Origin: a virus
Strand: one strand, 5' to 3'
DNA: 64,000 bases
Virus record (IMG/VR): IMGVR_UViG_3300023179_000053
Span: 29,814-93,813 of that record
The notes beneath the pieces were generated by a model. The model did not search any database. It was not told where the DNA came from and worked only from the letters and a program-made list of their open reading frames with translations. This document shows, piece after piece, positions 450 to 59,242 of this stretch. Positions within the stretch are counted from its first letter, which is position 1. The number at the start of each line of letters is the position of its first letter. Made by a program: the position numbers and the translations under genes.

Positions 450-456
450 AATAAAA

Positions 457-505
457 ATGCCGGATAGAATAAAGTGTCGCAGCACTTTATTATTCTACCC
501 GGCAT
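457..505 (-). terminator. Strong stem-loop, probable Rho-independent terminator
   Basis: A near-perfect inverted repeat pairs ATGCCGG plus TAGAATAAAGTG with CACTTTA..TTCTA plus CCGGCAT around a six-base loop. On the minus strand it is followed by TTTTTAT. It lies directly downstream of the gene ending at 538 and upstream of tRNA-Arg, so it could end the upstream message or act as a processing signal before the tRNA. The long symmetric stem could work in both directions. Confidence 0.8.
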
Positions 506-537
506 TTAGGGGGATTATTTATTATTACCCCTAGTTA

Positions 538-2338: not shown

Positions 2339-2415
2339 TGCTGGCGATGGGACTTGAACCCATATGTCACCAGTTAACCTTTCTACACTTTATAAGAGTG
2401 AGGGTATACGCCAGC
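2339..2415 (-). tRNA. tRNA-like gene with degenerate D region, possible UAU anticodon
   Basis: The acceptor stem GCTGGCG/CGCCAGC and T arm ATGGG-TTCAAGT-CCCAT are perfect, and the overall length (77 nt with discriminator A) is normal. The middle does not fold canonically. The only good anticodon-type loop is CTTATAA closed by CACT/AGTG, which gives anticodon TAT. It starts only eight bases after position 7, leaving no D arm and about 22 nt before the T arm. This is either a D-armless or decayed tRNA, or I have missed an alternative fold. Confidence 0.55.
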
Positions 2416-6665: not shown

Positions 6666-7673
6666 CTAACCTTTACTAGTCCATACTTGTTGGGCAAGCA
6701 GGCTCATTGGGAAATCAGTCAATCTATTTTCACGCAGTTTCATATTGTAACGGCTCACAATTAAATATGGCAATGATGTGAAAGTTACAGTTTGACCACT
6801 ACTGATCATTGCTTGTGCTTGTGCAATTACTAATGAAGGACTGCCAAGCTTTGTCAATGCTTCAGTCAATCGTTGCTCATTAACTTTCTTACCGTAACGG
6901 TTATAAATACAAGAAACGGCAGAAATCATTTGGTCTCTAAACATTTCTTTATTGTCAGGATAGGAATTTTTAAGAGTACGCAATGCCTTTTCCAATACTG
7001 CTGGACCGGCATTAGTATAAACTTTACGAACTGCCGCAACACAACGAATTCTATTTGGACCAGGTGCAAAATGTACTTCTGCGCCAATTTTAGCAACTAC
7101 ATTTGAAATACCAATAGCAGTTTCATCACCGGCAACAATGCCTGCCTTAAAGATTTGAGCAGGAGTTGGCTTGGTATGTTCTTTATTAGTTAGTGCAAAG
7201 ATATGCGCTTCGTCTTCAAGTGTAAGACCAAAGTAAACCAATGCGTTTACATTTGCATCTTTCATTCCCATTTCAAGCATTGCGTGATAACGATGGCTAC
7301 CATCAATGATTGCCAATGTATTATCTTCACGCATTGAACAAGTAATAACACCAAGCAAATCCGGATCAAAATTCTTTACGATTCGATTGATTTTTGCTTT
7401 CAATGGACTGCGTTGATATTGATAATCAACAAACATATCAGAGATTTTGATTAAAGACGACATCTTTGAAATGTGTCCAACATCAAAGTTAGCGCCAAGA
7501 GATTCGTGTTTTGTAACAATTGGAACATTCAAACTCTTTGCCGCCTCCTTAATTTGTTTATTGTTTTTTGGTTTAACAGGAACAGTTTTGTTTTTCACTG
7601 TTTTCTCCTTTTTGTTGTTGTTAATTAATTGCTTTGATATTTTCATGCTATTTTTCTTACTAGGCGTAGCCAT
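6666..7673 (-). CDS. ParB/Srx-fold (ParB N-terminal domain-like) protein
   Basis: A 335-aa protein with a Lys/Asn-rich basic leader (residues 1-45), then a ParB-like region at about 74-165. That region holds YQR followed by the hallmark DGSHRYHAM (Asp124 to Met132), equivalent to the D-G-x-H-R motif of ParB/Noc and DndB-type proteins. The family includes CTP-binding partition proteins, but also phage proteins that act as nucleases or regulators. No ParA partner is present here, so a plasmid-style partition role is not supported. The C-terminal half is helical and unassigned. The start overlaps the upstream gene by 14 bases. Confidence 0.8.
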   Translation of the reverse strand: MATPSKKNSMKISKQLINNNKKEKTVKNKTVPVKPKNNKQIKEAAKSLNVPIVTKHESLGANFDVGHISKMSSLIKISDMFVDYQYQRSPLKAKINRIVKNFDPDLLGVITCSMREDNTLAIIDGSHRYHAMLEMGMKDANVNALVYFGLTLEDEAHIFALTNKEHTKPTPAQIFKAGIVAGDETAIGISNVVAKIGAEVHFAPGPNRIRCVAAVRKVYTNAGPAVLEKALRTLKNSYPDNKEMFRDQMISAVSCIYNRYGKKVNEQRLTEALTKLGSPSLVIAQAQAMISSGQTVTFTSLPYLIVSRYNMKLRENRLTDFPMSLLAQQVWTSKG

Positions 7674-12592: not shown

Positions 12593-12893
12593 TTGCTTGA
12601 CACAGCTTAATCATTTTAAATACTACCGGTCCGTGCATATAATTTTCTCCACCCAATACAATATCCCATTCTTCAAATTTTGGATGATCTTTATAAACTT
12701 CATTAAACCATTGTTTACAAGATTCTAACAAAATGTTTTTATCCTCTTCTGTTAGTTGTTTTGTAATAGCAATAATTTCTTTTTCTTTTTGGTTTCCAGC
12801 ACTCCATACTCTATGGTCATCTGAATACTCATATGTATGATCGAAATTAATAATTTCATTTGCAATTTCTTCTAAATTATTGGTTTTCATCAT
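12585..12893 (-). CDS. Hypothetical protein (102 aa)
   Basis: Unknown function. AAAGGAGAAA precedes the ATGATG start. Acidic, with aromatic residues (KQWFNEVYKDHPKFEEWDIVL, in its middle). Overlaps genes on both sides. No motif recognised. Confidence 0.75.
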   Translation of the reverse strand: MMKTNNLEEIANEIINFDHTYEYSDDHRVWSAGNQKEKEIIAITKQLTEEDKNILLESCKQWFNEVYKDHPKFEEWDIVLGGENYMHGPVVFKMIKLCQANV

Positions 12894-13242
12894 TTTCTCC
12901 TTTGTTTTTATAGTGTAACTTTCCTTCTAACTTACTTTTTGAAATTTCATCCCAATAATACGGAATTGATTCTTCAATTTCATACACTACTTCATGCTCT
13001 ATATTATCAGGATAATAAATAACTCTAATAGTTGGATAAGAGCCAAAGTCGTGTTCATTCCATTTTATTTTAAATCTAATACCAATTTCTAATGCTTTTG
13101 GAAACGTTCTTTTTAATTGATCTAGGAAAGTTTCAGCTTCAAGCAATGCATCTTCATAAAAGTTTTCACTTCCTAATTGAGCGCAAGTTTCTTCTATTGG
13201 AGATGTATCAAATTCTAAATAATCTGTATTTACCACTTTCAT
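12877..13242 (-). CDS. Hypothetical acidic protein (121 aa)
   Basis: Unrecognised acidic soluble protein; AAAGGAGCTAT precedes the ATG. The centre looks beta-rich (EIGIRFKIKWNEHDFGSYP, about residues 51-69). It is the first gene after the 196-bp inverted-repeat element, so its leader contains that structure. Confidence 0.75.
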   Translation of the reverse strand: MKVVNTDYLEFDTSPIEETCAQLGSENFYEDALLEAETFLDQLKRTFPKALEIGIRFKIKWNEHDFGSYPTIRVIYYPDNIEHEVVYEIEESIPYYWDEISKSKLEGKLHYKNKGENDENQ

Positions 13243-13263
13243 ATAGCTCCTTTATAGTTTGAT

Positions 13264-13459
13264 TTATAGATAAAATAGAGATAGGCGGGAAACATTTGTA
13301 CCCAACTGAATTCATTTGCAAACCAACCCGTATATAAATTTACAAATATAGTTAAGCCATTCTTAACTGATACTTTAATATAACGCATCACCGTTATACA
13401 TATTTCCCTTCACCCAATAAGAAAGGAGATGGGCTAGCCTATCTCTATTTTATTTATAA
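13264..13459. repeat. 196-bp element bounded by 23-bp inverted repeats
   Basis: Positions 13264-13286 and 13437-13459 are inverse complements over 23 bp, with a single G-T pair; the core is a 15-bp perfect match (AAAATAGAGATAGGC). Between them lie perfect small hairpins: AGTTAAG-CCATT-CTTAACT (13350-13368) and TATAACG-CATCAC-CGTTATA (13379-13398). A further ATTTGTA/TACAAAT pairing links 13294-13300 with 13341-13347. The right repeat contains the stop codon of the 13454 gene. It could be a structured RNA in the leader of the downstream genes or a miniature mobile element; no target duplication is evident. Confidence 0.75.
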
Positions 13460-13837
13460 CTCTTCCCAGATTCTTTTATACTGGAACACATCTTCATCTC
13501 TATCAACAAGATAAAGAGATATTACGTGTTTTCCCAATTTACGATCATCTGAGCCAACATATGGATAAATCATCTGAATAGCAAATTGCCATTTAGACAT
13601 AAATTTCTTTTGATGATTTGTAAATGGTGGATTGACTTTGTAATGAGTAATATTGAAGTCCGTGTTAAGGTACTCATTTACAGCACCAAGAAATACATAT
13701 TCAAAGTATTTTTCTGGCACTGGTCTTGGCGTAAATCCATTATTTTCTCTTTCGTTTTGGAAAAGCCATTCTTTTTCTAAAACAATGAGATGCTTACCAT
13801 CTGCTGTGTATTTAAACTTACCGTATGGGTTTTTCAT
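13454..13837 (-). CDS. Hypothetical protein (127 aa)
   Basis: Unknown function. AAAGGAGAACAA precedes the ATG and the upstream zinc-ribbon gene overlaps it (ATGA). A basic/aromatic protein with a beta-rich look. Its TAA stop lies inside the right arm of the inverted-repeat element, so transcription past it forms the large hairpin. Confidence 0.75.
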   Translation of the reverse strand: MKNPYGKFKYTADGKHLIVLEKEWLFQNERENNGFTPRPVPEKYFEYVFLGAVNEYLNTDFNITHYKVNPPFTNHQKKFMSKWQFAIQMIYPYVGSDDRKLGKHVISLYLVDRDEDVFQYKRIWEEL

Positions 13838-27688: not shown

Positions 27689-30600
27689 TATACCTCAACC
27701 ATATTTTTTATTTGTTTTCTAACGATGTAATCCTCGATAGTAATTAGTTTATCAGCAGAATCGAGCTTGAAAGAGTCAAGTCGATTAAGAGTTTCCTTAT
27801 CTTCAATCTTTGATAGTCGTGCAGCATACCATTCACCCTCTTTAAGCAGCGCCTTTACCTTCTTATACACTGCCGCAAATATCACTACCTTAAAGAATTG
27901 CTTCCCATCCCAGCAATAAACACTCGCCATCTCTTTGCCTGTTGATGTTTTAAAACTTCTAATATTGAATACATACATCATTGTCTTTGGATCATTGATG
28001 AAACCTATATCGTGCTTATAGACCCAAGAATATTTGTGGTCAGTACCGGATTTCTTCATCATCATGATATTATAAAGCTTTGAGTCTTGCGCCTGATAAA
28101 CATCACAGTATGCGTGAAGCGTTCTATCACCAATCAACGCATAAACATAATCACGCTGTGCTAGCTCGGTATTTCTTTCACCAAAAACGGTACAAGAGCC
28201 GGAGTGATCTTCAAACTCAACCCGCAAATAATTCTGCGCCTTCTTTGTAGACCTAACTACGGCTTTAATCAGCGTTAAATTAGAGGCGGTCTCATGAAAA
28301 TCTGCAGCATTTTCTACAAATTCATCAATATCTGTCTTAAATTCACTAGCCTTAATAGGGAATCCAAGAATTGGCAAGTAGTATCTAGGGTGATCGAACT
28401 GAGATACGTGCCCAATTGACTCAAATGCACCGACCTTATCCAAATTTTCTCTCAGCGGAGCCTTAACTGCACTCTTGGAGCACTTATTATTAAACTCCTC
28501 AAACGAATTGAATGGTCTCTTTGCGAATATTTCGTTTATTGCACTTACACCACAGCCGGTAACATTGGTAAGACCAAATCTAATGCCTTCTTCTTCATCA
28601 GGAAGAGACATTGAAAAGAATTCTTGTGACTTATTGATATCCGGTGGATAAATTTTAAGACCTAGCCGCTGCGCTTCCATCAAATACGCTGTAATTTTGT
28701 CAGTTGCAGACTCATTGTATAATAACGCCCACATAAATTCAAGTGGATAGTTAACCTTCAACCACATTGTTTGATAGGACATTAAAGAATAAGCAACAGC
28801 GTGGGATTTATTAAACATATACAACGCTGAAAGCTCAAATTCAGACCAAATCTTATCCGATTGCGCCTTTGTTAAATATTTATTGTTAACAAACTTGTCT
28901 TTGAACTTATCAAACTCAGCAACATCACGCTTCTTACCAATGATCTTACGCAAAGAGTCTGCTTCAGACCATGTAAAGTCAGCCAGCAGCACCGCCATTT
29001 GCATCAATTGCTCTTGGAAAATAACTGTGCCATAGGTTTCTTCTAAAATCGATTTCACAACCTCGTGGGCATACTTTGGATTTGTTTCACCCTTCTTGCA
29101 GTCAATATATCTCTGCCCTTGGGATAGCAAAGCGCCGGGTCTAACCAGAGCGTTTGACACAACAAGGTCGTTAAAGTTATCAATACCCATACGCTCAATC
29201 AAATTACGATAGGCGGCAGCATCTGTTTGGAAAATACCCACCGTATTGATGTTATTAAAGTTCTCATACACCTTTTGGTCGTCTAGGGCTAGGGAGAGCG
29301 CTTCCACATCCCTTCCATAACGCTTCCTAATCATTTCTAAAGCGTCTTTAATGACAGATACGGTCTTGAGACCCAAAACGTCTATTTTTATAAGCCCAAC
29401 GGCTTCTGCGTCTTCCATCGCAAAGGCTGTAACGGCACTTCTTTCCCCACCCTGTGAGTCTTTTCTGGATTCCACCGGACACACTTCGGTCAATGGAACC
29501 GCCGATACCACCATTCCTGCAGCATGGACACCTGCTGTGCGTACACGCTCTTGTAGGCGCTCTGCAAGCGCGGGAACATCGGGATATTTGCGAACAAATA
29601 TCTTGCCTTTCTCCGTGCTCTTTAGTTCATCAATGGTTTCAAAATATGGGGTGATATTATTGATCTCGGCATACGGAACCTGTAGAATTCTGGCAACATC
29701 TTTCACCGCACTCTTTGGTTTAAATGTGCCATAAATGGAAATCGCCGCTACCTTGTCTTCTCCCCAGCGTGTGGCAAGATAATTTTTGACTTCATCTCTG
29801 CGTTTATCTTCAAAGTCAAGGTCAATGTCTGGATAGTCGTTTCTTTCGGGGTTGATAAATCGTGAAAACAAAAGCTTATATTGAAGCGGGTCAACCTTTG
29901 TAATATCCAACAGATACGCCAGCAAACTTCCGCCAACCGAGCCTCGCCCTGTGCCTCGCCCAATGCCGTTGTTATCCGCCCATTTTACCAAGTCCCATAC
30001 AATCAAGAAATAATCCGCAAAGCCGAGCTGTTTAATAATTGCCAATTCTTCTTCAAGCCGAGCCATATATTCATCCCCAAGATTTAATTCCTTGAGCCGG
30101 AATTCCGCCATCTCTTTTAGATAATCATCGGAGTTGAGCGACTTCATATACTTGGGCAAAAGATTCTTCCTTTTCTCCAGCTTTGCCGTACACTTCTGCG
30201 CTACTTCAACGGTATTCTCCAGAATATCTGCTCTGTCATAACCGGCATCTTTAAACCACGATGCCACTTCTGCTGCATCTGCCAAGTACGGATTGATTTC
30301 ATCAAAGCGTAAAGACCTGTTAGGATACATATTATTGATTTTCGCCACCATATCAAGACTGGGGTTGTGTAAACAGTCGGCATGGTCTTTGGCATGTCTT
30401 TGGTCTGCTGCCCCAAGGCTTGGGTATTGAGAAATCATAAGAAGTATTTCTTCACACCCCTTATCCTTTCTTGAAGGGAAATGACAGTCTGCTGTTGCCA
30501 CCACCTTGCGCCCATAAGTTTGGGCAAGGCTTATTAGACCATCATTTAGCTCTTTTGGATTCCAAGCCTGTATTTCATAATAGAAGTCATCTTTAAATAT

Positions 30601-31662: not shown

Positions 31663-31734
31663 CTGGGGAGGATGGGTTTGCACCACCATCTTCTAATTAT
31701 TGGTCAATTAGCGCTTTGCTTAAGCTACTCCCCA
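31663..31734 (-). tRNA. tRNA-like gene with unusual anticodon arm
   Basis: The acceptor TGGGGAG/CTCCCCA and T arm GGTGG-TGCAAAC-CCATC are clear. The D arm is short (GCTT/AAGC). The anticodon arm is a 6-bp stem CTAATT/AATTAG with loop GACCAAT, so position 33 is A, not U. Centred, the anticodon would be CCA (Trp), but a non-canonical loop makes this uncertain. The length is 72 nt. Confidence 0.55.
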
Positions 31735-44903: not shown

Positions 44904-45299
44904 CTATCTCTCCGTCAACGAAATAGAGACATCATAGTAAGCACATTGTGTACTATACTCTCTTCTTATTAAAGTTTCACTATATGAATCAATATAGCAA
45001 TCATATGATGTTAGCCCGCCATTTGGCTCTAACTCGATTCCAACAGCTACTGATGCAGAGCTATTTGCTATGTTGTTTAAAAAATCCCTTCCAACTCTGC
45101 CATCTACTGTTTGAGCCTGAAGGCTGGGTAGGTAGGACCATGTTAAATTAAATTGCCTTTTATTTCTTGAATAATATCTTCTTCTATGACCAGATGCTAA
45201 GTCAATATCATTACCAGCAATTTGTTCACTAACAGATATTTTTCTATTATGTTCTGTTATTTCTGTAGAATTAATAGTTATTATTTTCTGTATTGTCAT
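44904..45299 (-). CDS. Distal tail protein, short paralogue (131 aa)
   Basis: A 131-aa protein directly after the tape measure gene, where Dit-type distal tail proteins lie. It shares the blocks HNRKISVS, SYLPSLQAQTVDG, GRDFLNNI and YSETLIRREYS with the C-terminal part of the 356-aa neighbour. It starts at the tape measure stop (TAATG). A ring-forming tail-tip role is inferred from position. Confidence 0.8.
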   Translation of the reverse strand: MTIQKIITINSTEITEHNRKISVSEQIAGNDIDLASGHRRRYYSRNKRQFNLTWSYLPSLQAQTVDGRVGRDFLNNIANSSASVAVGIELEPNGGLTSYDCYIDSYSETLIRREYSTQCAYYDVSISLTER

Positions 45300-48200
45300 T
45301 ACATACCCCTATTAATTCCATTGTATGTTCTTATAACCCTGTTTTCAAGACCGGCAGCTTTTTGATTTCTTGGAACAACTTTCATGTTGTATTCCTTCAT
45401 CATTGAGTTAAACCATTCTGGCTCGCCAATAAAGTTGTCAACGTAAATGTTTACATTAGATGTTGAAGACGAAGATGGGACTTGTGTTGAATTATCAATC
45501 CTGACGTTGGGCATTGATATGCCTGGGATCGCAGGCATTCTTGGATATCTTGGCTTAGAAAGGCGCAAGTTATTTAATGCATTAAGAGCATCTGTGCCAA
45601 TTCTTTGCACAGCTTTATGGTTAATTATATATTCACCACCATGAAGAATTGCCGGCACTGCTTGTTGTGAAAATCCAGGTGTTACACCGCCAAAAGCATA
45701 TGTCATGCCGCCCTTCATATAAGAGCGAATTTTTCCGCCATTATACTTCCCATCTGGCTGAACCAAGCCGGCGGCTTTGCTTTGTAGAGCAATTTTTTGC
45801 TGAGCCAAGGTTGCTTGCGCTTTAGCAACCTGATCGTCAGTTAATGCACCGCTTCTCATTGCTTCTGCTAATTTTGCAGATGTAGCATTCCATTGAGCAA
45901 CGGCTTTCATATAGTCTTCTTGTCTTTGCAATGCGGTTACTTCTTTTCCTACCTCAATTTCTTTAATTTCTGGTATTACGTCTCTAAATGAATATGTTTT
46001 ACCAGCAATTGACCCAAGCCCCACATATTTAAGCCATTCAGGCATTGTAAATGTATAACCTGTTATTTTATTTATTCCTTTAATAACTAAATTAATTGCA
46101 CTAGCAAACAAATTTGGAATTTTTCCAACTAAACCAATAACAAAATCAATAGCGCCGCCAAGAGCATCTCTTATAAAATCTCCAATTTTTTGAATTTTTG
46201 GCACAACAAAATCATAAAATGTACTAAATGCACTTTTAATTGAACCCCATAAATTTTTTATAAAATCTAGACCGGCGGCAATTTTATCCCATACCCAGTG
46301 TGCAAATTCTTTAAGCACTGGACCAGCCCAGGACCAGAATTCTTTAATTTTATTCCAGACAAATTGAATAGCCTCAGTAACTTTTTCCCATCCAGCCTTG
46401 ATCTTATCCCATATCCAGGATGCAAATTCTAGAAGTATTGGACCAGCCCAAGACCAGAATTGTTTAAATTTTTCCCATAAGAATCCGATTGCATCTGTAA
46501 TTTTATCCCAAGCCCACTTAATACCATTCCACAGCCATTCCCATAATTTACTTAAAACAGGCTCAATCCAATTCCAAACTTTTTTAAACAATTCCCAATA
46601 GAAGTCGATTGCCTCTGTAATTTGATCCCACGCCCACTTAATACCATTCCATAACCACTCCCAGAGCTGAGAGAGTACTGGCTCAATCCAGCCCCAAATC
46701 GTCTTGAATATTTCCCAATAACCATTTAAAGCTTCTTTCAATCTTTCCCATACCCAAACTATTCCATCCCACAGCCAACTCCAAAGTTTGCTAAGAACTG
46801 GTTCTATCCAACCCCAAAATTCTTGGAATACCCCCCAATACTCAGTCAAAATATCTTTGATAAATTCCCAACCCACTTTAATTTTATCCCACAGCCAACT
46901 CCAAATTTTTGTAAATACTGGTTCAATTATTATCCAACCCTCAGTTATTGCATCCCAGAATGTCTTAATTGGATTCTTAAGAGCTTCCCAGACCCAGCCA
47001 AGTGCATCCCAAATACCTTGACCAACTTTTTTAATTAATTCCCAGACTGCTTCCGCAACATACTTAACACCTTCCCAGAATTTCTTAGCAGCAGTTCCTA
47101 TGATACCCCAAACCCAGCCAAGTCCATCCCAGATAGCATTACCAACAGATACAGCAAATTCTACAATTTTATTAAATACCATTTTTGCAATTTCAAAGAA
47201 CTTTTGAATTGCAGGTCCAATATTATTCCAAATCCAACCAAGCCCTTCCCAGATTGCTTTTGCAACTGTTTTCAAAATATCAATAAACGTTACAAATATT
47301 TTTCTAACAGCAGCCCAATATTTTCTAACTGCATATGACAGCTGATCCCATATGAAGCCAAGAGCATCCCAAATTACACCACCTACAGCTTTAAATATCT
47401 CCCAAACACCACCCCAGAACTTTTTCAACAATTCCCAATACTTTTTAAGAGCTATGCCAACTATATCCCAGACCCAACCAAAAGCATCCCAAATTGCATT
47501 GCCTGCAAGTTTCAAAATATCCCAAACAGTACCCCAAAACAATTTCAAAAATTCCCAATATTTTTTAAGAGCTGCGCCAACCAAATCCCACACTTTACCA
47601 AGAGCATCCCAAACTACTTGTCCCACTAATTTCAAGATATCAACAAAGTATTCAAATATTGCAGACACAGTATCCCACCACAACTCTGCATAGCCCTTGA
47701 TTCTCCCCCACACCCAACCGAGACCTTCCCAAATTAATTTGGCTAAATCAATTATTGGTCCCATAATTTTTTTCACCAAATTAAATATTGTCTCAAATGC
47801 TGCTTTCATAAATTCAAACAACAACATCACCACTTTTCTTAAGAATTCAAATGCTGCAATAAATGGAGTGAGTATTAGACCAATGATTCCAAATTCTTCA
47901 TATATCCATTTAATTAAGTCCCAAATTCCTTGAAGTATTGGCTGCACCACACTCCAGGCAGTTTTAAACGCCCCTACAAGCAAATCTTTAACAATCATTG
48001 CAAAATTCCAAATCAATTCGAAACCAGGCTTAAACGTATCATATAAAAATATAGCAATGGTTTTAAGAATATCAAATACTGTTTTAAATGCGTTATATAT
48101 TGTTTTTGCAAACGTTTCAAGCAATTTTGCAATTATAAAAATTCCAAGCATCAAAACTCTGAACAGGAAATCTCTAATCCATTTAACAACCGGATTATTC

Positions 48201-51200
48201 CAAATTGCATTAAGAACACTAAATATTGCAACAGCTATGCCAGATGCTACGTCAACGACTTTACCTATTATTGAACTAATAACATTTACAACACTACTGA
48301 AAACACTAACAATTACAGATACGATTGCCAAAAATATTGGCGATACAAAATCATAAACTTTTTTGGCAGCATCAATTATAAATTCAAATATCCCTTTAAC
48401 TATTGGTGCTAGAGCTTTAATTGGGCTCCATATTGCCGGTCCAAGGAATGGAGCTATATTTTGGAATAGTCTAACTATACCGCCAAAGAAATCTCCAATT
48501 GATTTGTAAGCAAAATCAAAAATAATTCTAATGCCATCAAATGGGGCAGATAATGCTCTTCCAATTACTTCTATTATTTTAACTAATACTGGTGTTACAT
48601 ATTGATTAAATAAATCAAAGATAAAACTAATTCCATCAAAAATTTTCTGGAATACTGGCATTACCACTGGCATTAATTTTTCAAATGCAATTATTGTCCA
48701 TTCAACTAATTTTACAAGAAGTAGAGAAATTCCACCAACAACTATCTTAACCGTCTCCCATATAAAATTAAGAGGCGGTCCTATGACAGCTTTTATAGCG
48801 CCCCAAATAGATTTGAAAATTCTTACAAATTCTTTTATAAGCGCTATGGAAATATCAAATGCAAACTTCAATGTTTCCCAAATTACATTCCACGTTGGAG
48901 GACCAAGTTTTACACCAATTTCTTTTAGAATATTCCAAAGCCTTCCACCCCATTCAACAATCCAATCAAAAGCAATAATAAATGGCTTTGAAAAATCTTT
49001 TAACCCTTCCCAAATTTTTGGAATTCCAATCTTTATGCCTTCAAATGTAGCTACAGACAAATCTTTTAAGAAATTAAATGCAGCAACAAGACCATCCCAG
49101 ATTGCTATAACAATACCATTTACTACATCTCTTACTGATTTAAATCTGGCATAGAGATATATCAATGTGCCTATTATAGTTCCAATAATTAATGGTAGTA
49201 ATCCAATTGTTGAACCAATACCTATTGCAAGACCTTTTATAGCAGTCCATATTGGAATTGCAGCCCCCATGCCGGCAACAACACCAACGGCTCCCAAGAT
49301 GGCAGTTTTAAGAGGACCAAGATAATCTGCAATTGAAACAATAATGTCACGAAGTTTTCCAAAAAATCCCTGCTTTGGATCTTCTTTTGGCTCGAGGTCT
49401 CTTGGGTCTACCGGCTTAGCCTGCAAGCCGTAGCCGACTCTGACAAGATTATCTCTTGAATCTTGTGGTGGATTAATCTCACTTGGTGTCAAACTTGGAG
49501 TCTTTGGTTTGTCAGATTGCCCTCCGCCTGAATCTTCTTGAGATCTAGTAGTTTCAATTATTACAATTTTTTTCTTCAACTCTTCTGCAGATGGGAATAG
49601 GTTCGCAAAATATTCTTTTAATTTTTCTAAATCTAGATCTGGGAACATTTCCCCAAATATTCTCTTCAAGTCTTCGACTGGAAGATCTGCAAACAATTTT
49701 TTGAACTCATCATACAAAGTTCCTTTAAGAGCAACGAGCTTTCTCTTCATCTCATTAACCATTTCAATTATTGCAAGACCAGCTGCTTCAATCCAAAGAT
49801 CTTTTGGAACTGTTCTATCTAATTCAGTTTTAACTGCAGTAGAGAACGGAGTAACAAATTGCGGTATAATTCCGGCACTAAATGCTTGCTTGAACGCATC
49901 AGGCATTCCTTTAACAAGATAATACGCCGCACCTAGTATTGACTCAGCATTTGGTCCAGCGACCCCTGCTCCAAATGATCTCTTTGCTTCGTCAACTAAT
50001 TGACTCATTGAAGTACTAAACATTCCAATAGCAGGGTCTGTTCCATCCCTAATCAAGCTTGGAAGTCGAGTCATTGCATTAGTAAATGATGTTGCTAAAT
50101 CATCTGAGAACCCTGACGCAACTGTTTGAATATTAGTAAACATTTGCTTAAATTCTTCTTCATTACTAAAACCACGAATTTTAATTTTTTCAATTCTTTG
50201 ATCAAAATCTTTAAACATCTTATCGTATTCTTTAATAAGAGCTTCTTTTTCTTTATTAATTATCTTTATAGCATCTTCTCTATTCTGACCTTGTAATGTT
50301 TTAACTCTATCTAAATCAAAATCCTTTAATTCTTTATCTTTTTCTTTACTACTCTTTTGGAAAGCAAGATCTAATGACCTCACATCCTCCGATCTTCCTT
50401 CATAAGCAGCAACCTTTCTTTCACGTAAATAATTCTCTCTATCCAGCGCTCGCTCTCTTATCATTTCACGACGCTTTTCTTCGTATTCAATCTTTGCAGT
50501 CAATCTTTCTTCAGCTTCAGCCAAAGCCTCAATTGCTTCTACCTGATTATCAAAAGCTTCAAGAGCTTTATCTTTTTGCTCATTTAAACCTTCTTTTAAT
50601 TTTTCAACAAACTTATCAACTTGCTCATCAGCTCTTCCAAAAAAGTTGTCTGTAAATTCAGACTTAAGATCACGTAATCCGTTTTTAATACCTTTAGCTA
50701 TTTGCTCTCCTAAACTTTCACCACCGGCATTAGCATCTTGAGCAGATCTCATTATTGCATTTTTAACATCTTTTGGCATTTCTTTAATCAAAGTAGCACT
50801 AAGAGCTGAATTTATACCTCTACCGATTGTTTCACCATATTTTTTACCAACAAAGTTTTTGAATTTATCTAACCCTCTCGCTGCGCCTTTTGCTCCGCTA
50901 GTTATTCCATTTGCAATTGATTCACCCACTCCCTTTTGACCAGATTTAACATCGGCTGCAAATTTTTCGATTCTGCCTTCAAGAGCAGTTATCCCAACAC
51001 CGCCAGCGACAATTGCAGCGCCACCAAGGGCGATTGGAAGTTGACCTGATATTGCTCCAACAACTGTTATGATTGATCCAAGTAACATCATAACTTCTTT
51101 TGCAAAACTCATAATTTTTATAAATGCTGTAATTGTTGCTGCAACAATCGCATCAATTATTTTTGCAAGAGTTGGAGCAAACATTTCTAAACCGGCAGCT

Positions 51201-54200
51201 ATAATGCTTACAAATTTACCAACAAAAGCTATTGCTTCATACAGTAATGATAATAATAATCCTTTAAAATTCTTACCGGCTTCAGCGCTTTTACCGCCAA
51301 ATGCAGCTCCAATTGCTCTACCAAGCAATATAAATCTATTGATTATTCTTGTTAAAATGGGAACAACAGTAGATTGCATATACTTTGCACCAACGCCTGT
51401 TGCAAATCTTTGAAATGCTTCAGCAGCTGCACGAATTGCTTTTGATATCACCCATATAAGCCCTGCTGTTCTTTTAACCGAATCATTTTGTTTACTAATA
51501 CCAGCAAATGCTCCGATCATATTTTCCAAAGGTGCTGCGAGCGCATATATTGCATCTTTAATTGCAACCCAAGCAGCTTTAAAGTTTTCAGATGCTGGCG
51601 ATAGACCTTGAATTCCTCGCTTTACTTTTGAAATAATTGCAAACAGCAATACAACAACAGGAGCAATCATTAATAAGGCAGCATTTATCTTAATTGCAAG
51701 TGCTGTAAAGCTTAGAGCAGTTCTTAAAACTGTTTGATATAATTGCTGAAAGCTAGCTACCAGACCTGAAAATTTCATTGTTAGCAAAGCCCTTCCGGCT
51801 GCTATTCCTAATGCCACAAATCCTTTAATTAACGGTTTAATACCAGTGAATAGCAAAAAGCTCCATGCTTTTATTATTTTACTCTTTTGTAAAGATGCAA
51901 AAAATGTTGATAATTCTGTAGCTGTTGTAGCACCGATAGCCTTCCCTAAGCTAAAAAAAGCACCAGCTAAACCTTTTATCATTTTATCTGCGATAGCAGC
52001 AGCTCTTCCTAAACCAGCAATAGCTTTTGAACCAACTAAAGCCGCCATACCAGCCATTCTTGATGAAGCACCCGCACCGCCAAGAGCCGTCACATACATG
52101 TCAAGAAATGCAATACTCATCTTAAAGAATTCGCTAGTTGATTTACCAACTATCTTAAATGCCCCTGATAGTGCAGCGCCACCAACTTTTCCTGCAGCAG
52201 CAAGACCTTTGCCAACAATACTGGCAACGCCACTTAATGCTGTTTTCAATAAACCTGCTTTTGCTACAGCAGCCCCAGTAGCAGCGCTGGCGGCTGTTGT
52301 TGCTGCGGCGGCAGGATCAGCACCAGCGGCTCTCGCAGCAGCTCTTGCATCAATTCTTCGCTTAGCCTCTTCTGCCCTCCTTGTATGGTGTGAAATCCTT
52401 GCTGCTCTTTCCCCTTCCGTCATATCGGAGAATTTCTTTTTATAATCTTTAAACTTGGCATTTGGCATTACTTGCAATGGACCGGCGAAATAATTTGGTC
52501 CTTGAAAGAAATTTGGTCCTTTAAAGAAGTTTGCAAGAGACCTATCAAACTCAACAATAACCTCATCCAATTTTTCAACAATTGCTGAACTTACCACTGC
52601 TGTTGCCGGGGCAGCTGTTGGGACCGCAACACGTGGAGCTCTTGGGGCTGCGCCTGTTGCACCTGCACCTGCTGCACCTGTTGTAGCCGCAGCTGCTGGA
52701 GCTGCACCCGCTGGAGCTGCAGAGGGCGCTGCTGTAGATGCCGACGCTGCCTTTTCAGCTTTTGCCGCTGCATCTCTAGCGGATTTTAACATTGAATTAA
52801 GTTTTCTTTGAGTCTTGTCTAACTCTTTATTATTACTTATTAACGCTTTTGTTTTTTTGTTAAATTCTTTTTCAACTTTTTCAAGCTCTTTTTTCCAAAA
52901 CTTCTGCCCTCTTTCAGAGGTGTCAGTCTTAAGACCTTCTTGAACCTGTGTTAATCGCTTTGCAGCATCTGATATTTCTTTATTTAACACCTCATCTATT
53001 TCTCTTAATGATTTAATTTTTTTGTATAGCTCACTTTTATCTTTGTCACCTTTTAAGAAAGATTTAAGATCAGACAATTTAGTTGTTCTTGCATCAAGTG
53101 CATCTGGAATTGCTGCTGAAGTGGCAGCAGTCCCAACAGTAGTTGCAGCAGTGCCTCCACTAGTAGCGGCAGCCGCAGTGACACCCTCAGTCGCTTCTTT
53201 TATTGCGCCGGTCGTAGCATCACTAACTTTTTCAGCAGCATCGCTAATTGATTTACCAACTTCTTCAGTAACTTCAGCCGCTGCATCTTTTGCAGCCTCA
53301 GCAGCTTCCGTCACCTTTTCAGCCACAGCAGCCTTTACACCTCTCTTACCTTTTGGAGCTAATTCCTCCAATGCCTTCTCACCTTTGCCAGCGGCTTCAT
53401 CAAACATTCTGCCTGCTGTTTCGACATCGAGATCCGGGCGTTCCTTAACAAGTCTCTCCACCACCCTCTTCTTTCTTCTCTCCAAAGCCCGCTGTTCTTT
53501 AGACTTACTCGGTCCTCTTTTACGAGCACCCTTTTCTGCGCTCTCTACAGCCTTATCACTTCTTGCTACTTTTTCTGCACCAATCCCTCCCAGATATTCA
53601 TCAAGCATTTCCTCCTTATAAGTTCCGGCACGGAATGCCTCTGCGATTGGACTCTTTACACCTTCAACTGCAGCGCCAGCAGCAGTCACTGCATCTAAAA
53701 CTGCAGCTTCTACGAAGATTCTAAAATCACTTAAACTAGCAACAACACCAGCAGCTGTAGCAGTTTTTGCACTAGCAATTTTTCTGAATGTGCCCATGAT
53801 AGCGCCTTTTGCCTTCATGAACACTCCGCCATCAACCTCTCTCATCGCAATTGTTCCAGTAGATAATGCTTTTGTTAAATCATCACCTAACGTTTGCAAT
53901 TGACCAAAACTAAACACTTGCTGTATAACTTTAGTAAGTTCATCATTTAATAGTAATGACTGGGACATGACCAGTTTTGCAATATCTGCATATTCAGCAT
54001 TGCCTGTAATGGGCACTGTCATTAGAACTTTTTGAATAACTTTTCTCATCACATTTACCTTTGCAGGATCAAATCCGGCAGGAATTGCTTTTACAAGAAC
54101 ATCATCCAAAAGCCTTGCAATTTCATCAGCTACTGTTTTTGAAACACCAGTTACAGAGGCGGATGCTGCCTTAACAGCATCTGCAAAGAAGACTCTTGAA

Positions 54201-57200
54201 ACACCACCAGGCAGTCTTACAGTACCAGCGCCACTGGCTGAAACTACAGGACGCGCAACACTCGCCGCAGTTGGAGTGGCGGCAGAAGTCGCTGCTGTTG
54301 CTCCTTTAATAACCCCAGCATCAAGTTTTGCCTGTGCAGTCATGGCAGCCTCGGCAGCCTCTATTGACCCATACTTTTCTAAGAGAGCAGCCCTAGCTTT
54401 TAGAAATGCCTTTCTTATTTTATTTCTAGAATCTGTTGCAGCTTTACTTCCATCTTTAGCAATTGCTGCCATTTCTGCATCTACCAATGCAACTCTATTA
54501 CGTGCCTCTTCTAACATTTTAGATATACGAGTTCTTTTAGTTTGATCTAACTTTGGAAGACTTTTCTCGACTTGAGGCAAAGTCTGACCGAAAGTCATAT
54601 GATCTTTGTCTAATACATCTTGAATCATTCTTGACTTAACTCTTGACATTAAGCCTTTTCTAGAAACTAATTTCTGCTCTGCTTCTGGATTGTATCTTTG
54701 ATCCAGCGGGTTAAATTCAGCAAGACTTTGCTGGTCTCTTATTTGATCTCTAGCTATTGAGGAAATAACTTGCCTTCTCAGGGCGGCAATTCTTTGAGGT
54801 GAAATTTTTTTCCCTTGTGGCGTTGTTTGCATAAGTCTTTGATTTACTTTTTCAGTCAAAGCTTTATCAACACCTGAATCTAAAGCTTCATTAATATCAT
54901 CAATTTTACTTTGTAATAACATTTCATATAAAGCTTTCATTTGAATATCAGCTTTTGGCACAGCAGCGCTTGGGACAGTTTTTGCAAATCTTTCAGTTAA
55001 AATCTTGTAATAATTTTTATTAGCTGTATCTCCACCACCAAGACCGCTTACAGCTGCCGCACCCATGTCTTTGTCTAGTTGAATATCAGTAAATGCTTTT
55101 CCGAGAGCACTCGGCGCTGTAACCAGGGTTCGTGGAGAGCCTTTAAGAACTTGTTCAGCTTCAAATTGCATTTTTTTAGCTGTCAAATCTGCGAGTGCTT
55201 TTGCGTGTGTCTTACGAGCAACATCTAAATTTTTAGTTAGACTGGCACGTGTTCCTTGTGGTATATCAGTTCTTGCAAGAGCATCTTCAAAAACTTTAAT
55301 TTCTTTTGAAAGCTTATCTACATGTTTTTCTAATTCGCCATATCTAATTGAAGCATCGGAGCTATAATTTACTACTTCTTGTAAACCATAAATTTCTGCA
55401 TCTAAGCCATTAAAAACACCTTTAAGCAATTTAGCCCTTGCCGTTTCAAAATCGGCATTTAGTTTTCTTGCTGCATCTGCAGCAGCTTCTTTAGCGGCGT
55501 TTTCCGCCGCCTTGCTTGCTTTTGCAGCTTTAGCTGCGGCACTACGAGCAGCGTTAGGATCCGCCCCCGCTCCACCAACTGCATTTAAAAGATTACCAGA
55601 TTCTGTTGCTGTTAAACCGCCGGCTTCAACTCTTTTCTTAAAAATATCTTCATATACTTCTACAGCATGACTTTTTTGATTAAGAGTGCGAGCTGCTATT
55701 TTTTTACCATCTTTATCAACACCACCAGCCCTGCCTGGTCTAAACTTAAACCTCCTTCCTCTCTTAGAGCCCTGCCCTTTGTCTGCAATTAGCTCTCCAA
55801 ACGGACCAGTAACTCTCATTTGTTCGGTCATAGCTTGATCAAACAATTGCTTTTGAGCAATATCAATTTTTTCTCTTAAAGCAATAACTTCATTTGCTGC
55901 TTTTTTAGCTACTGCTGTATCTTTAGAACCCTGAAGCTCCAGAGCCCTTTCTAATTTATTTTCTAATTCTATTACCTGATTAGCCCTTGCCTTTAACTCT
56001 TTTGAAATATTACGACCCAGCCCTTTATTTTTTGGATCTTGTGCAAATGATAAAGCTTCATTTACTGCTTTTGGAGCTTTTACATCTCTTACCTCAACCG
56101 CCATTTGTTGAGTATCTTTAAGCAGAGTTTTCATTTTTGTTTCTGAAACTTCCCATTCTTTATCCCACGTTCTTAAGAACATATAATCGTTAGGCAAAGA
56201 TACGTGAACATCATCTAACGCTTTAACAATATCTCTTGTATGCAAAGTAACTGTTTTAGCAACTCTTCCACCTTTTGATGCAGCTTTTTTAGCATCATCT
56301 ATACCATCTGTTATAGTTGCTGCAGCATCAGATGATACAGAAGTTACAGCTGCCGCAGTATCTGCAACTACTGCACCAACTCCGGCAGTTACATCAGCAA
56401 CTACATCCGTTCCTTTTTTAACCGCATCTTTAACGCCCTTCGTAACTCTCTTTTTAACTTCAGCTACAGTTTTTTTAACCGGCTCAGGACCGGGAATTGT
56501 TGGCAATACAGGAGTTGTTGGTACTTTAAAACCACCGGCTGGTATGCCGCTTGTGCCAGTTACAGGTGGAGGTAGCGATGGACCATACGTTGGTCTTGTG
56601 TCTGGAGGTAGCGATGGACCATACGTTGGTCTTGTGTCTGGAGGCGGCACTTCTGGTCCATACACAGGACTAGGCGCTGGGGGACCATATGTTGGTCTTG
56701 TATCGGCAGGTGTTCTAGGAGACCTAGGCGTTCTTGGTCCACGAGGTGTGCCGGCACGACCTGTTCCACTGCCGCCTGGACCTCCAGTAAATGTATTACC
56801 CATAAATCTGTTACTGGTAAATACGGCTCCTTTAAAACCCACCGCAAGAGCTTCTTTAACTGAATCACCGACAGCTTTAGCAGTTGTAGCAGCAGCATCA
56901 GCAGTCCCATCAAGTGCGTCTATAGCACCACCTAGTGCTTCTATTTCCAAACCACCCGCTGGAAGACCAGCGGCTCTTCTTATGATTGACTTAAGACTCC
57001 CAGATCCCGGTCCTGAGCCTTGTTGCATTATTTTTTGCAATTGTGGATTTAAACCACTAACGTCTGTTACAGCACCTCTCTTTCTTCCAGACAAAAGAAC
57101 TTGCTGACCACCTGGGAGTGATGTTGCATTTTGCCATCCTTTAAGCGCTTTTCCACCACGCATTATTAGATCAGTAACATCAACTATCTTTGCACCTGTC

Positions 57201-59242
57201 TTTCCAAAACTTGTAGCAAGTTTTGCTAGAGATGAAACAGCGCCAGCAAAGAACCATCTAAAAGAAACAGACAATAATTTTATTGTTGGCAACAAGCCGG
57301 CAAATATTACTGCAAAGCTCAGCATTTTCTTACCGGCTGGGCTGAGTCTTTCTATAAAATCTCTAATTGCTTGAAGTATCGGTGTAAAAAATTCTATTAA
57401 TGGTCTAAATGCACTAACAATAACTCTTCCTATTGCCAGCACCTCTTCTTTTAGTATTCTAAATTTTGTTATTGTGGTATCTAAACCAATTTTTAATTCA
57501 GTTTCTAATTGCTTTTGAGCTACGTCTTCAATTCTAAAAGCAGTAGACATTAATATTCTACCAGCCTCTGTATTAATCTTGCTTAAAAAGTCTTGCGATT
57601 TATCACCACTAGTACCAAATAATTTGTTAAGTTGATTAAAAGCTTGTTCTTGCCCTATACGAATTATATTAGCTCTTTTCGTGTATTGCCCATTAACACT
57701 TTCTGTTGCTTTTCTATGAAGGTCACTTATATCAATCATTTTATTCAAAGAAAACATTTCATTTTCTGCATATCCAGCTGCTTTTAATCTTGCATTAATA
57801 TTAGATTCAAGAACTGATGATATTTTTCTTTCAACAGAGTTAGCTTCTGATAATTGTTTTTGATAAACAGCAAGTTGTCTAATTGATGTCTCCATTCTCG
57901 GTCCCTGACGAACGCCGAACAATCTTGAAAACAATTCCAAAGTACCTTGCTCACCTTTTATACTTAATAATGTATTAAAGCCATCTGTAAGTTTTTGTAT
58001 ATTCTCTATACTTACGCCAGCTGCATAATCAAAATCCGGTCCTAATGCTTTATTTAATTCACCAATAATCTGACTATTTTGTTTTGTCATTGCAACCATT
58101 CTTTGCAATGAAACTTTAATTGAGTTAGCAGACGCACCAACTTGGAATCCAGATGCCACCATCGGAGCAAGAAGCGCAGCAGATTCCGTCATTGACAAGC
58201 CGAACGTTGTTGCAGCTGCTGATACTTCAGGGAATGCATCTGCGAGATCTTTTAATGAAAGACTTGTTTTATTTTCGACTAAGTTAAATTCTGCTAATTG
58301 ACCTCTAAGCTCTTGTATAATTACTGCAAACTGTTTAGGATCTGTTAAATCAAGTTGCTGCCCTAGTGCTTGAGATTGTTCTCGTTTAACTCTAAGAATA
58401 TTTTGCAACATTGATTCAACAAATTTCTGAGATTGCTCAATATCTACGTTACCTAGCTTTTCAACTGTTGTAGTTAATTCAACAAGATCTGCTAATGCCT
58501 GAGTATCACCTATACCTAGTTCCGCAAAGTCTCCGGCTAGAGCTTGAACAAGCACCCTGCTGGTTCCAAATTTTCTAGTAATTTTGTCCAGTTCTTTTCC
58601 AAGAACCGCAGTCTGCTCTGCTGCTAATTTAATAGCTTCCTCTCCAGAGCCAAAATTGTCAACCATGAGTTTTGTAACTCGGGCAGACTCTTGCTCTAGA
58701 TCTGCAAAACTAAAGAAGGCTGTTCTTAATGCTCTTGTGAATGCAAATGTTTGAGCAGTGGCTCTTAGGATACTCATGTTCATTTGTGTTAATGAACCCT
58801 TGCTTCTATTAGCCCACTGTTGAATAGATGTTGCTTGCAATGCTTTATTAAGAGAAGTTGCGCTGCTTGCTAATTTTGCAGTTGCCGCCGCTTGAGATTG
58901 TAGAGCCGCTGTAGCTTTAGGAGAAGAAGTTCCAAGCCTTGTAATTACCTGATCTAAGGCGGCATTTTGCTTTACAGCTTCACTTATAATTTTATTACTA
59001 AGCACATGAGCTTTTGTATTTGCAGCAATTAAACCTGTGAACGTTTTTGTAGTATTGCCTGTACCTTTAGTAATATTTTGCAGCATTTGCTGAGTGCTGC
59101 TGAGTTTATTAATAGTAGCTACTGTATTATTAATATCCTGCGCTACTTGAGATAGACTATTGCGTAAAATTGCAGCTTCAGAAGTGTCTGCAGTGACAGT
59201 AAATTTTATATCACCATAAGGTGTTGATGAAGTGTCAGACAT
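45299..59242 (-). CDS. Giant tape measure protein (4647 aa)
   Basis: A single 13.9-kb reading frame. The N-terminal portion (about 160-430) matches the PhageMin_Tail-type core (FADLEQESARVTKLM ... GDFAELGIGD), then TM-type helices (near 640), a Pro-rich segment with a 12-residue DNA-level repeat (about 825-900), long Ala/Lys-rich coiled regions (900-2000), a helical charged stretch (near 2930-3000), and Trp-rich helical repeats (about 3830-4335). The C-terminus ends with GGEYIINHKAVQRIG, a common tape-measure end. At about 0.15 nm per residue it would span roughly 700 nm. It sets tail length and delivers DNA. Confidence 0.95.
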   Translation of the reverse strand: MSDTSSTPYGDIKFTVTADTSEAAILRNSLSQVAQDINNTVATINKLSSTQQMLQNITKGTGNTTKTFTGLIAANTKAHVLSNKIISEAVKQNAALDQVITRLGTSSPKATAALQSQAAATAKLASSATSLNKALQATSIQQWANRSKGSLTQMNMSILRATAQTFAFTRALRTAFFSFADLEQESARVTKLMVDNFGSGEEAIKLAAEQTAVLGKELDKITRKFGTSRVLVQALAGDFAELGIGDTQALADLVELTTTVEKLGNVDIEQSQKFVESMLQNILRVKREQSQALGQQLDLTDPKQFAVIIQELRGQLAEFNLVENKTSLSLKDLADAFPEVSAAATTFGLSMTESAALLAPMVASGFQVGASANSIKVSLQRMVAMTKQNSQIIGELNKALGPDFDYAAGVSIENIQKLTDGFNTLLSIKGEQGTLELFSRLFGVRQGPRMETSIRQLAVYQKQLSEANSVERKISSVLESNINARLKAAGYAENEMFSLNKMIDISDLHRKATESVNGQYTKRANIIRIGQEQAFNQLNKLFGTSGDKSQDFLSKINTEAGRILMSTAFRIEDVAQKQLETELKIGLDTTITKFRILKEEVLAIGRVIVSAFRPLIEFFTPILQAIRDFIERLSPAGKKMLSFAVIFAGLLPTIKLLSVSFRWFFAGAVSSLAKLATSFGKTGAKIVDVTDLIMRGGKALKGWQNATSLPGGQQVLLSGRKRGAVTDVSGLNPQLQKIMQQGSGPGSGSLKSIIRRAAGLPAGGLEIEALGGAIDALDGTADAAATTAKAVGDSVKEALAVGFKGAVFTSNRFMGNTFTGGPGGSGTGRAGTPRGPRTPRSPRTPADTRPTYGPPAPSPVYGPEVPPPDTRPTYGPSLPPDTRPTYGPSLPPPVTGTSGIPAGGFKVPTTPVLPTIPGPEPVKKTVAEVKKRVTKGVKDAVKKGTDVVADVTAGVGAVVADTAAAVTSVSSDAAATITDGIDDAKKAASKGGRVAKTVTLHTRDIVKALDDVHVSLPNDYMFLRTWDKEWEVSETKMKTLLKDTQQMAVEVRDVKAPKAVNEALSFAQDPKNKGLGRNISKELKARANQVIELENKLERALELQGSKDTAVAKKAANEVIALREKIDIAQKQLFDQAMTEQMRVTGPFGELIADKGQGSKRGRRFKFRPGRAGGVDKDGKKIAARTLNQKSHAVEVYEDIFKKRVEAGGLTATESGNLLNAVGGAGADPNAARSAAAKAAKASKAAENAAKEAAADAARKLNADFETARAKLLKGVFNGLDAEIYGLQEVVNYSSDASIRYGELEKHVDKLSKEIKVFEDALARTDIPQGTRASLTKNLDVARKTHAKALADLTAKKMQFEAEQVLKGSPRTLVTAPSALGKAFTDIQLDKDMGAAAVSGLGGGDTANKNYYKILTERFAKTVPSAAVPKADIQMKALYEMLLQSKIDDINEALDSGVDKALTEKVNQRLMQTTPQGKKISPQRIAALRRQVISSIARDQIRDQQSLAEFNPLDQRYNPEAEQKLVSRKGLMSRVKSRMIQDVLDKDHMTFGQTLPQVEKSLPKLDQTKRTRISKMLEEARNRVALVDAEMAAIAKDGSKAATDSRNKIRKAFLKARAALLEKYGSIEAAEAAMTAQAKLDAGVIKGATAATSAATPTAASVARPVVSASGAGTVRLPGGVSRVFFADAVKAASASVTGVSKTVADEIARLLDDVLVKAIPAGFDPAKVNVMRKVIQKVLMTVPITGNAEYADIAKLVMSQSLLLNDELTKVIQQVFSFGQLQTLGDDLTKALSTGTIAMREVDGGVFMKAKGAIMGTFRKIASAKTATAAGVVASLSDFRIFVEAAVLDAVTAAGAAVEGVKSPIAEAFRAGTYKEEMLDEYLGGIGAEKVARSDKAVESAEKGARKRGPSKSKEQRALERRKKRVVERLVKERPDLDVETAGRMFDEAAGKGEKALEELAPKGKRGVKAAVAEKVTEAAEAAKDAAAEVTEEVGKSISDAAEKVSDATTGAIKEATEGVTAAAATSGGTAATTVGTAATSAAIPDALDARTTKLSDLKSFLKGDKDKSELYKKIKSLREIDEVLNKEISDAAKRLTQVQEGLKTDTSERGQKFWKKELEKVEKEFNKKTKALISNNKELDKTQRKLNSMLKSARDAAAKAEKAASASTAAPSAAPAGAAPAAAATTGAAGAGATGAAPRAPRVAVPTAAPATAVVSSAIVEKLDEVIVEFDRSLANFFKGPNFFQGPNYFAGPLQVMPNAKFKDYKKKFSDMTEGERAARISHHTRRAEEAKRRIDARAAARAAGADPAAAATTAASAATGAAVAKAGLLKTALSGVASIVGKGLAAAGKVGGAALSGAFKIVGKSTSEFFKMSIAFLDMYVTALGGAGASSRMAGMAALVGSKAIAGLGRAAAIADKMIKGLAGAFFSLGKAIGATTATELSTFFASLQKSKIIKAWSFLLFTGIKPLIKGFVALGIAAGRALLTMKFSGLVASFQQLYQTVLRTALSFTALAIKINAALLMIAPVVVLLFAIISKVKRGIQGLSPASENFKAAWVAIKDAIYALAAPLENMIGAFAGISKQNDSVKRTAGLIWVISKAIRAAAEAFQRFATGVGAKYMQSTVVPILTRIINRFILLGRAIGAAFGGKSAEAGKNFKGLLLSLLYEAIAFVGKFVSIIAAGLEMFAPTLAKIIDAIVAATITAFIKIMSFAKEVMMLLGSIITVVGAISGQLPIALGGAAIVAGGVGITALEGRIEKFAADVKSGQKGVGESIANGITSGAKGAARGLDKFKNFVGKKYGETIGRGINSALSATLIKEMPKDVKNAIMRSAQDANAGGESLGEQIAKGIKNGLRDLKSEFTDNFFGRADEQVDKFVEKLKEGLNEQKDKALEAFDNQVEAIEALAEAEERLTAKIEYEEKRREMIRERALDRENYLRERKVAAYEGRSEDVRSLDLAFQKSSKEKDKELKDFDLDRVKTLQGQNREDAIKIINKEKEALIKEYDKMFKDFDQRIEKIKIRGFSNEEEFKQMFTNIQTVASGFSDDLATSFTNAMTRLPSLIRDGTDPAIGMFSTSMSQLVDEAKRSFGAGVAGPNAESILGAAYYLVKGMPDAFKQAFSAGIIPQFVTPFSTAVKTELDRTVPKDLWIEAAGLAIIEMVNEMKRKLVALKGTLYDEFKKLFADLPVEDLKRIFGEMFPDLDLEKLKEYFANLFPSAEELKKKIVIIETTRSQEDSGGGQSDKPKTPSLTPSEINPPQDSRDNLVRVGYGLQAKPVDPRDLEPKEDPKQGFFGKLRDIIVSIADYLGPLKTAILGAVGVVAGMGAAIPIWTAIKGLAIGIGSTIGLLPLIIGTIIGTLIYLYARFKSVRDVVNGIVIAIWDGLVAAFNFLKDLSVATFEGIKIGIPKIWEGLKDFSKPFIIAFDWIVEWGGRLWNILKEIGVKLGPPTWNVIWETLKFAFDISIALIKEFVRIFKSIWGAIKAVIGPPLNFIWETVKIVVGGISLLLVKLVEWTIIAFEKLMPVVMPVFQKIFDGISFIFDLFNQYVTPVLVKIIEVIGRALSAPFDGIRIIFDFAYKSIGDFFGGIVRLFQNIAPFLGPAIWSPIKALAPIVKGIFEFIIDAAKKVYDFVSPIFLAIVSVIVSVFSSVVNVISSIIGKVVDVASGIAVAIFSVLNAIWNNPVVKWIRDFLFRVLMLGIFIIAKLLETFAKTIYNAFKTVFDILKTIAIFLYDTFKPGFELIWNFAMIVKDLLVGAFKTAWSVVQPILQGIWDLIKWIYEEFGIIGLILTPFIAAFEFLRKVVMLLFEFMKAAFETIFNLVKKIMGPIIDLAKLIWEGLGWVWGRIKGYAELWWDTVSAIFEYFVDILKLVGQVVWDALGKVWDLVGAALKKYWEFLKLFWGTVWDILKLAGNAIWDAFGWVWDIVGIALKKYWELLKKFWGGVWEIFKAVGGVIWDALGFIWDQLSYAVRKYWAAVRKIFVTFIDILKTVAKAIWEGLGWIWNNIGPAIQKFFEIAKMVFNKIVEFAVSVGNAIWDGLGWVWGIIGTAAKKFWEGVKYVAEAVWELIKKVGQGIWDALGWVWEALKNPIKTFWDAITEGWIIIEPVFTKIWSWLWDKIKVGWEFIKDILTEYWGVFQEFWGWIEPVLSKLWSWLWDGIVWVWERLKEALNGYWEIFKTIWGWIEPVLSQLWEWLWNGIKWAWDQITEAIDFYWELFKKVWNWIEPVLSKLWEWLWNGIKWAWDKITDAIGFLWEKFKQFWSWAGPILLEFASWIWDKIKAGWEKVTEAIQFVWNKIKEFWSWAGPVLKEFAHWVWDKIAAGLDFIKNLWGSIKSAFSTFYDFVVPKIQKIGDFIRDALGGAIDFVIGLVGKIPNLFASAINLVIKGINKITGYTFTMPEWLKYVGLGSIAGKTYSFRDVIPEIKEIEVGKEVTALQRQEDYMKAVAQWNATSAKLAEAMRSGALTDDQVAKAQATLAQQKIALQSKAAGLVQPDGKYNGGKIRSYMKGGMTYAFGGVTPGFSQQAVPAILHGGEYIINHKAVQRIGTDALNALNNLRLSKPRYPRMPAIPGISMPNVRIDNSTQVPSSSSTSNVNIYVDNFIGEPEWFNSMMKEYNMKVVPRNQKAAGLENRVIRTYNGINRGM
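46260..47750 (-). repeat. Trp-rich 40-residue repeats in the tape measure
   Basis: Within the tape measure C-terminal part, two related helical repeat families occur. The first reads IWDALGWVW-type followed by KKYW or KKFW, six or seven times; the second reads W-I-E-P-V-L-S-K-L-W plus WLWNGIKWAW, about five times. The spacing is about 40-43 residues and Trp/Phe recur every 3-4 or 7 residues. Nucleotide similarity between copies (for example around 46500-46700) points to recent duplication. Confidence 0.85.
56567..56638 (-). repeat. Tandem 36-bp repeat encoding PPDTRPTYGPSL
   Basis: Two perfect tandem copies of a 36-bp unit encode the same 12 residues; further, diverged copies lie on both sides (for example PPDTRPTYGP near 56660). 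This makes a flexible Pro-rich linker about 880 residues into the tape measure. The near-identity indicates very recent expansion. Confidence 0.9.

Follow-up and report, generated by a model that had tools for sequence, protein, structure and literature searches.

A predicted structured RNA carried at two alternative loci by uncultivated freshwater phages

Phage T4 carries within its tRNA cluster the small stable RNAs C and D, two non-tRNA species for which we know of no function. Base-pairing small RNAs with C/U-rich loops are known to bind Shine-Dalgarno (SD) sequences. GOLLD, a structured RNA of phages and prophages that is often found near tRNA islands and was first known from metagenome covariation, and ROOL, a phage-borne RNA often located near tRNA genes, are both of unknown function (PMC12286853). 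Among the noncoding RNAs of phage K, which are lytic-phage RNAs detected during infection, some likewise lie by tRNA genes (PMC9241854).

Here we describe an element found in a 64,000-nt stretch of DNA (referred to as the window), taken from a virus record of 93.8 kb (IMGVR_UViG_3300023179_000053, positions 29,814 to 93,813). As modelled by folding, the whole element spans positions 13264-13459 of the window on the minus strand, on which the surrounding genes also lie, with its 5′ end near 13459/13460 and its 3′ end near 13264. Judging from the comparison of related sequences detailed below, this is a genuine element that works as an RNA of the minus strand. The RNA is non-coding, belongs to freshwater phages and has an elaborate fold, which is maintained as the sequence diverges.

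The original prediction, made from the letters of the window, had described 23-bp inverted ends, and 22 of the 23 positions do pair (13264-13286 with 13437-13459). Taken slightly wider, the inverted arms extend over 26 nt each (13261-13286 and 13437-13462), with 92% complementarity. The two perfect 7-bp hairpins announced inside them are present at 13350-13368 and 13379-13398. A longer-range pairing exists as well, but as two minus-strand helices (P3 and P6, see below) rather than one. As had also been noticed, the outer stem covers the stop codon (13454-13456, minus strand) of the gene located 5′ of the element, which codes for a 127-aa protein (13454-13837, minus strand). The statement that no gene lies within the element holds too: a 50-aa open reading frame (13239-13391, minus strand) is interrupted in each of the five relatives examined (L004, L006, L008, L009 and L146). 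The minus strand folds with a minimum free energy of −65.7 kcal/mol, compared to −39.7±4.2 kcal/mol for shuffled sequences (n = 200, z = −6.1, no shuffle equal). Since the arms are inverted repeats, folding of the plus strand is also beyond chance (z = −7.4). A terminator-like site on the plus strand (13425-13446) was set aside as the palindrome formed by P1 and P2, and a hammerhead or 6S-like fold was dismissed by eye, the core nucleotides and the bubble being unsuitable.

A search with the 127-aa protein, which has relatives at 54-89% identity and no match in Pfam or PHROG, returned seven contigs, in six of which the element follows the gene. A profile of the same protein revealed a more diverged copy in L146. 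A covariance model (R1) built from the six distinct sequences of this near group scored the window at 208 bits on the minus strand (13256-13460) and at 31 bits on the plus strand, and, in contigs G020, G015 and G009 of the same wider phage group, recovered three further homologues with scores of 45-56 bits. Altogether, 11 records of related uncultivated phages carry the element, corresponding to nine distinct sequences. Contigs of the group devoid of the RNA are also devoid of any tRNA gene and may therefore simply lack the locus.

Outside this group, no convincing match to the element was found in six cultured actinophages or in 31 further viral records, and the plasmids searched did not match it. 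Several candidates were rejected. One pattern match in genome_contigs was not confirmed by the covariance model, matches to an 18-base pattern elsewhere lay in unrelated sequence, and a short match in L164 was not matched by the model. In the unrelated contig L139, a stretch directly 5′ of a RuvC-like gene (7327-7352) shares a 25-nt identity with the P3/P4 region; it has no similar fold and no model match, and was taken as chance. The model also gave weak hits, not accepted, to phage BillNye (E = 0.3) and to L203 (E = 0.05, fold unlike). In mycobacteriophages, an antisense match of 21 nt (E = 0.7) corresponds to an SD-containing stretch and was attributed to chance. The terminase of the source phage shares 41% identity with its counterpart in Streptomyces phage Coruscant (Stanwilliamsviridae), from which an actinobacterial host appears likely on sequence grounds. 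The window also contains a single 4647-aa open frame (45299-59242, minus strand), very large for a phage gene and possibly a giant tail gene.

Compensatory changes in the long stem had been proposed as the mark of an RNA, and the comparison of relatives came out in favor of one. Among the nine sequences, 96.5% of the cells of helices P1 to P3 are paired, and both sides have changed with pairing retained in 22 of 35 pairs, compared to 8.4 after shuffling (0 of 500 shuffles reaching this count); these sequences come from one phage group and six of the nine are closely related, so that pair counts are not independent events. When the partner strand was slid, both-side changes in the nine sequences fell to 1-8. 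Within the six near sequences, 17 of the 58 pairs of all six helices changed on both sides and stayed paired, against 7.1 after shuffling (0 of 500). In the distant homologues, the P1 arms have diverged at many positions without losing their pairing. Non-Watson-Crick cells comprise 21 G-U and 3 A-C, indicating that the minus strand is the RNA strand. The structured non-coding RNA, one of the options initially listed, is thus strongly supported by compensatory stem changes exceeding both the shuffled and the slid controls. Another of these options, a non-autonomous mobile DNA element with terminal inverted repeats, would account for the long inverted ends and for the occurrence of the element at two genomic positions across relatives, but hardly for arms that change by compensation, G-U states that are paired only in RNA included, or for inner helices that covary as well. 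No target duplication was seen by eye in the flanks, and the proposed search for further copies found a single one in each of the 11 records, which leaves this reading with next to no credibility.

In the resulting model, for which all coordinates are on the minus strand, the 5′ strand of P1 (UUAUAAAUAAAAUAGAGAUAGGC, 13437-13459) and its 3′ strand (GCCUAUCUCUAUUUUAUCUAUAA, 13264-13286) form 22 pairs along 23 positions, and across the nine sequences 16 of these pairs changed on both sides. P2 is a side hairpin (13412-13434) made of a 4-bp stem (GCCC, 13431-13434, and GGGU, 13412-13415; three of four pairs changed on both sides) and a 15-nt loop, in which CUCCUUUC (13421-13428) contains a CCUUUC motif that is invariant in the alignment of all nine sequences. 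P3 joins GGGAAAUAU (13400-13408) to AUGUUUCCC (13287-13295) through 9 bp, with 100% of cells paired and three of nine pairs changed on both sides. Its 3′ strand is contiguous with that of P1; as P1 and P3 share this uninterrupted strand, a stack of the two is expected, from whose 5′ strand P2 would branch. The figures for the three remaining hairpins come from the six near sequences: P4 (UAUAACG/CGUUAUA, 13379-13398) has four of seven pairs changed on both sides and is 100% paired; P5 (AGUUAAG/CUUAACU, 13350-13368) has three of seven changed, is 70% paired and is poorly aligned; P6 (13314-13347), in which AUUUGUAAA pairs with UUUGCAAAU (13339-13347 with 13314-13322), has four of nine changed and is 98% paired. 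Between P4 and P5 lies a single strand, J4/5 (UUAAAGUAUC, 13369-13378), with a conserved AAA. Folded singly, each distant homologue adopts the same P1/P2/P3 layout and has two inner hairpins where the near group has three. The length of P3 is constant at 9 bp, that of P2 at four positions, and the AAA/UUU of P3 is invariant in all nine sequences.

The distribution of conserved positions bears on whether the element could be a cis-acting mRNA processing site, in which RNase III would cut P1 between messages and the inner hairpins would be incidental. P1, with at least 22 bp, is located between genes and reaches into the end of a coding sequence, as such a site might, and its neighbors in the distant group are a tRNA-Arg gene on one side and a coding gene on the other. 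The conserved nucleotides, however, cluster at the junction (AGGC-UA, the CCUUUC loop, AA, the P3 strand including AAA, and GCCU), conservation thus being highest at the P1/P2/P3 core and not along P1. In addition, the inner helices covary and both loci occur without the element in relatives. We therefore consider a mere processing site quite unlikely.

Two alternative loci harbor the RNA. In the near group, it follows the 127-aa gene, and a coding gene comes directly after tRNA-Arg(UCU) (375-449 of the window, minus strand) with no RNA between them, so that this other site is empty in the window. In the three members of the distant group, the RNA is instead downstream of tRNA-Arg(UCU), directly after it in L198 and L199 and ~95 nt after it in L197, while other genes, and no RNA, come after the 127-aa gene. 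In each group the opposite site is empty and its flanking genes are intact, which is our main reason for thinking that the RNA gene acts in trans; the RNA is conserved independently of its flanking genes, as befits a trans-acting small RNA. This arrangement argues against both a mobile DNA element and a leader. In the latter, another of the initial options, the RNA would control the gene 3′ of it as a riboswitch or leader, and it is true that a start codon lies ~20-60 nt downstream in several relatives and that the compact conserved core recalls aptamers. Yet the 121-aa gene found 3′ of the RNA in the window (12877-13242, minus strand) does not always adjoin it: L146 has a different downstream gene, and the distant group has yet another, presumably DUF3846-like. 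In the near group this distant-group gene occurs unaccompanied by the RNA; there, the gene after tRNA-Arg in L214, L215 and L216 resembles it by eye. No conserved expression platform was seen, and with the RNA at two unrelated loci a leader role is very unlikely.

Other features were observed around tRNA genes and at the ends of the element. In L197, L198 and L199, but not in the near group, U-rich tails follow the long P1 and could be a terminator. Just ahead of tRNA-Arg in the window (~450-530, minus strand), a long near-perfect hairpin with a T-rich run resembles a strong terminator. A tRNA-like RNA (2339-2415, minus strand) scores 34 bits against the Rfam tRNA model without being called by ARAGORN, and four near relatives retain it with scores of 33-34 bits; it is possibly a degenerate or unusual tRNA. 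A weak tRNA match (31663-31734, minus strand, 42 bits) appeared in a search of the whole record and neither in the scan of the window nor with ARAGORN.

Taken together, we think it probable that the element is a stand-alone, single-copy phage RNA gene whose product is excised from a co-transcript and acts in trans, rather than in cis on one gene. The minus strand would give rise to an RNA of ~160-200 nt, shown by covariation to fold into the long P1, the coaxial 9-bp P3, P2 at their junction and two or three more hairpins. This RNA is probably co-transcribed with its neighbors and then excised. Because P1 is long and tRNA-Arg is adjacent in one of the loci, we infer that RNase III could act on P1 and that, where the RNA follows tRNA-Arg, processing of the tRNA 3′ end would also release it.

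How such an RNA would act may be sought in the P2 loop. CCUUUC is identical to a portion of the 3′ tail of actinobacterial 16S rRNA, and the loop could therefore pair with SD sequences. The trans-acting RNA may then base-pair through CCUUUC with the SD (AGAAAGG) of host or phage messages, altering their translation during infection. We put SD capture forward as our leading proposal for the mechanism, while rating it as less likely than not. Distant homologues have U/C/A-CCUUUCU in place of CUCCUUUC, showing that the portion best suited to pair with AAGGAG is not fixed, and the phage start sites carry ordinary SDs, so that the complementarity of the loop is not specific. A broader proposal, that of a new class of phage regulatory RNAs presenting a copy of the 16S 3′ tail on a rigid, possibly pseudoknotted scaffold to capture SDs and redirect translation, seems unlikely to us. 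As the main alternative, the same RNA gene could use its loop internally, in which case only the last step would differ: CUUU would pair or form triples with GAAA/UUU in P3 or with AAAG in J4/5, a possible partner from its sequence, without any pairing to messages, and the compact pseudoknotted fold would bind a protein or self-assemble, as GOLLD and ROOL do. The exact 9-bp length of P3, its invariant AAA/UUU, the conserved AAA of J4/5, and the constancy of CCUUUC within an otherwise variable loop are all consistent with an internal contact, and CUUU/AAAG pairing could involve 3 bp in L197 and L198 and 4 bp in the other distant homologue, L199, as well as in the near group. In the nine sequences, neither the loop-message pairing nor the internal contact shows covariation, the two sides of the latter never varying. 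We hold the internal contact to be a real possibility, somewhat short of an even chance.

The window and the distant loci were also compared with known RNA families. With the curated thresholds of Rfam 15, only tRNAs were reported in them, and permissive searches gave sub-threshold matches that were weak and chance-like. One of these, U6atac in two homologues (E = 0.17 and 1.8), was far below its cut-off and was rejected. The GOLLD and ROOL models gave no gathering-score match in the window or the distant loci, nor in the permissive searches. The element is a previously undescribed RNA family among the structured phage RNA genes of unknown function, its closest known counterparts being GOLLD and ROOL. 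For lytic-type phages, few small structured RNA genes have the support of covariation, and the tRNA-island RNAs GOLLD and ROOL are still without a function. The size of the RNA described here suits direct structural and genetic work, nine diverged sequences are available to guide mutants, and the two alternative loci separate the function of the RNA from its neighbors. The source phage being an uncultivated relative of the Stanwilliamsviridae phages of Streptomyces, a deeper search of actinophages could yield a tractable system.

Several described RNAs resemble this one in part. RNAs C and D of phage T4 belong to a different phage group and are likened to it by description only. With the C/U-rich-loop small RNAs it has in common a pyrimidine run, complementary to SDs, in a hairpin loop; here, however, the loop lies inside a branched conserved fold and pairing to messages is putative. 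Like ROOL and GOLLD, the RNA is phage-borne, and it is near a tRNA gene in the distant group, whereas the RNA of the window group sits elsewhere. ROOL is much larger and more complex. The phage K RNAs come from RNA-seq of a staphylococcal phage, and their likeness to the present RNA is one of description only (PMC9241854). GOLLD, too, is a structured phage RNA found near tRNA genes and seen through metagenome covariation, but it often exceeds 800 nt (PMC12286853), compared to ~160-210 nt for the RNA described here.
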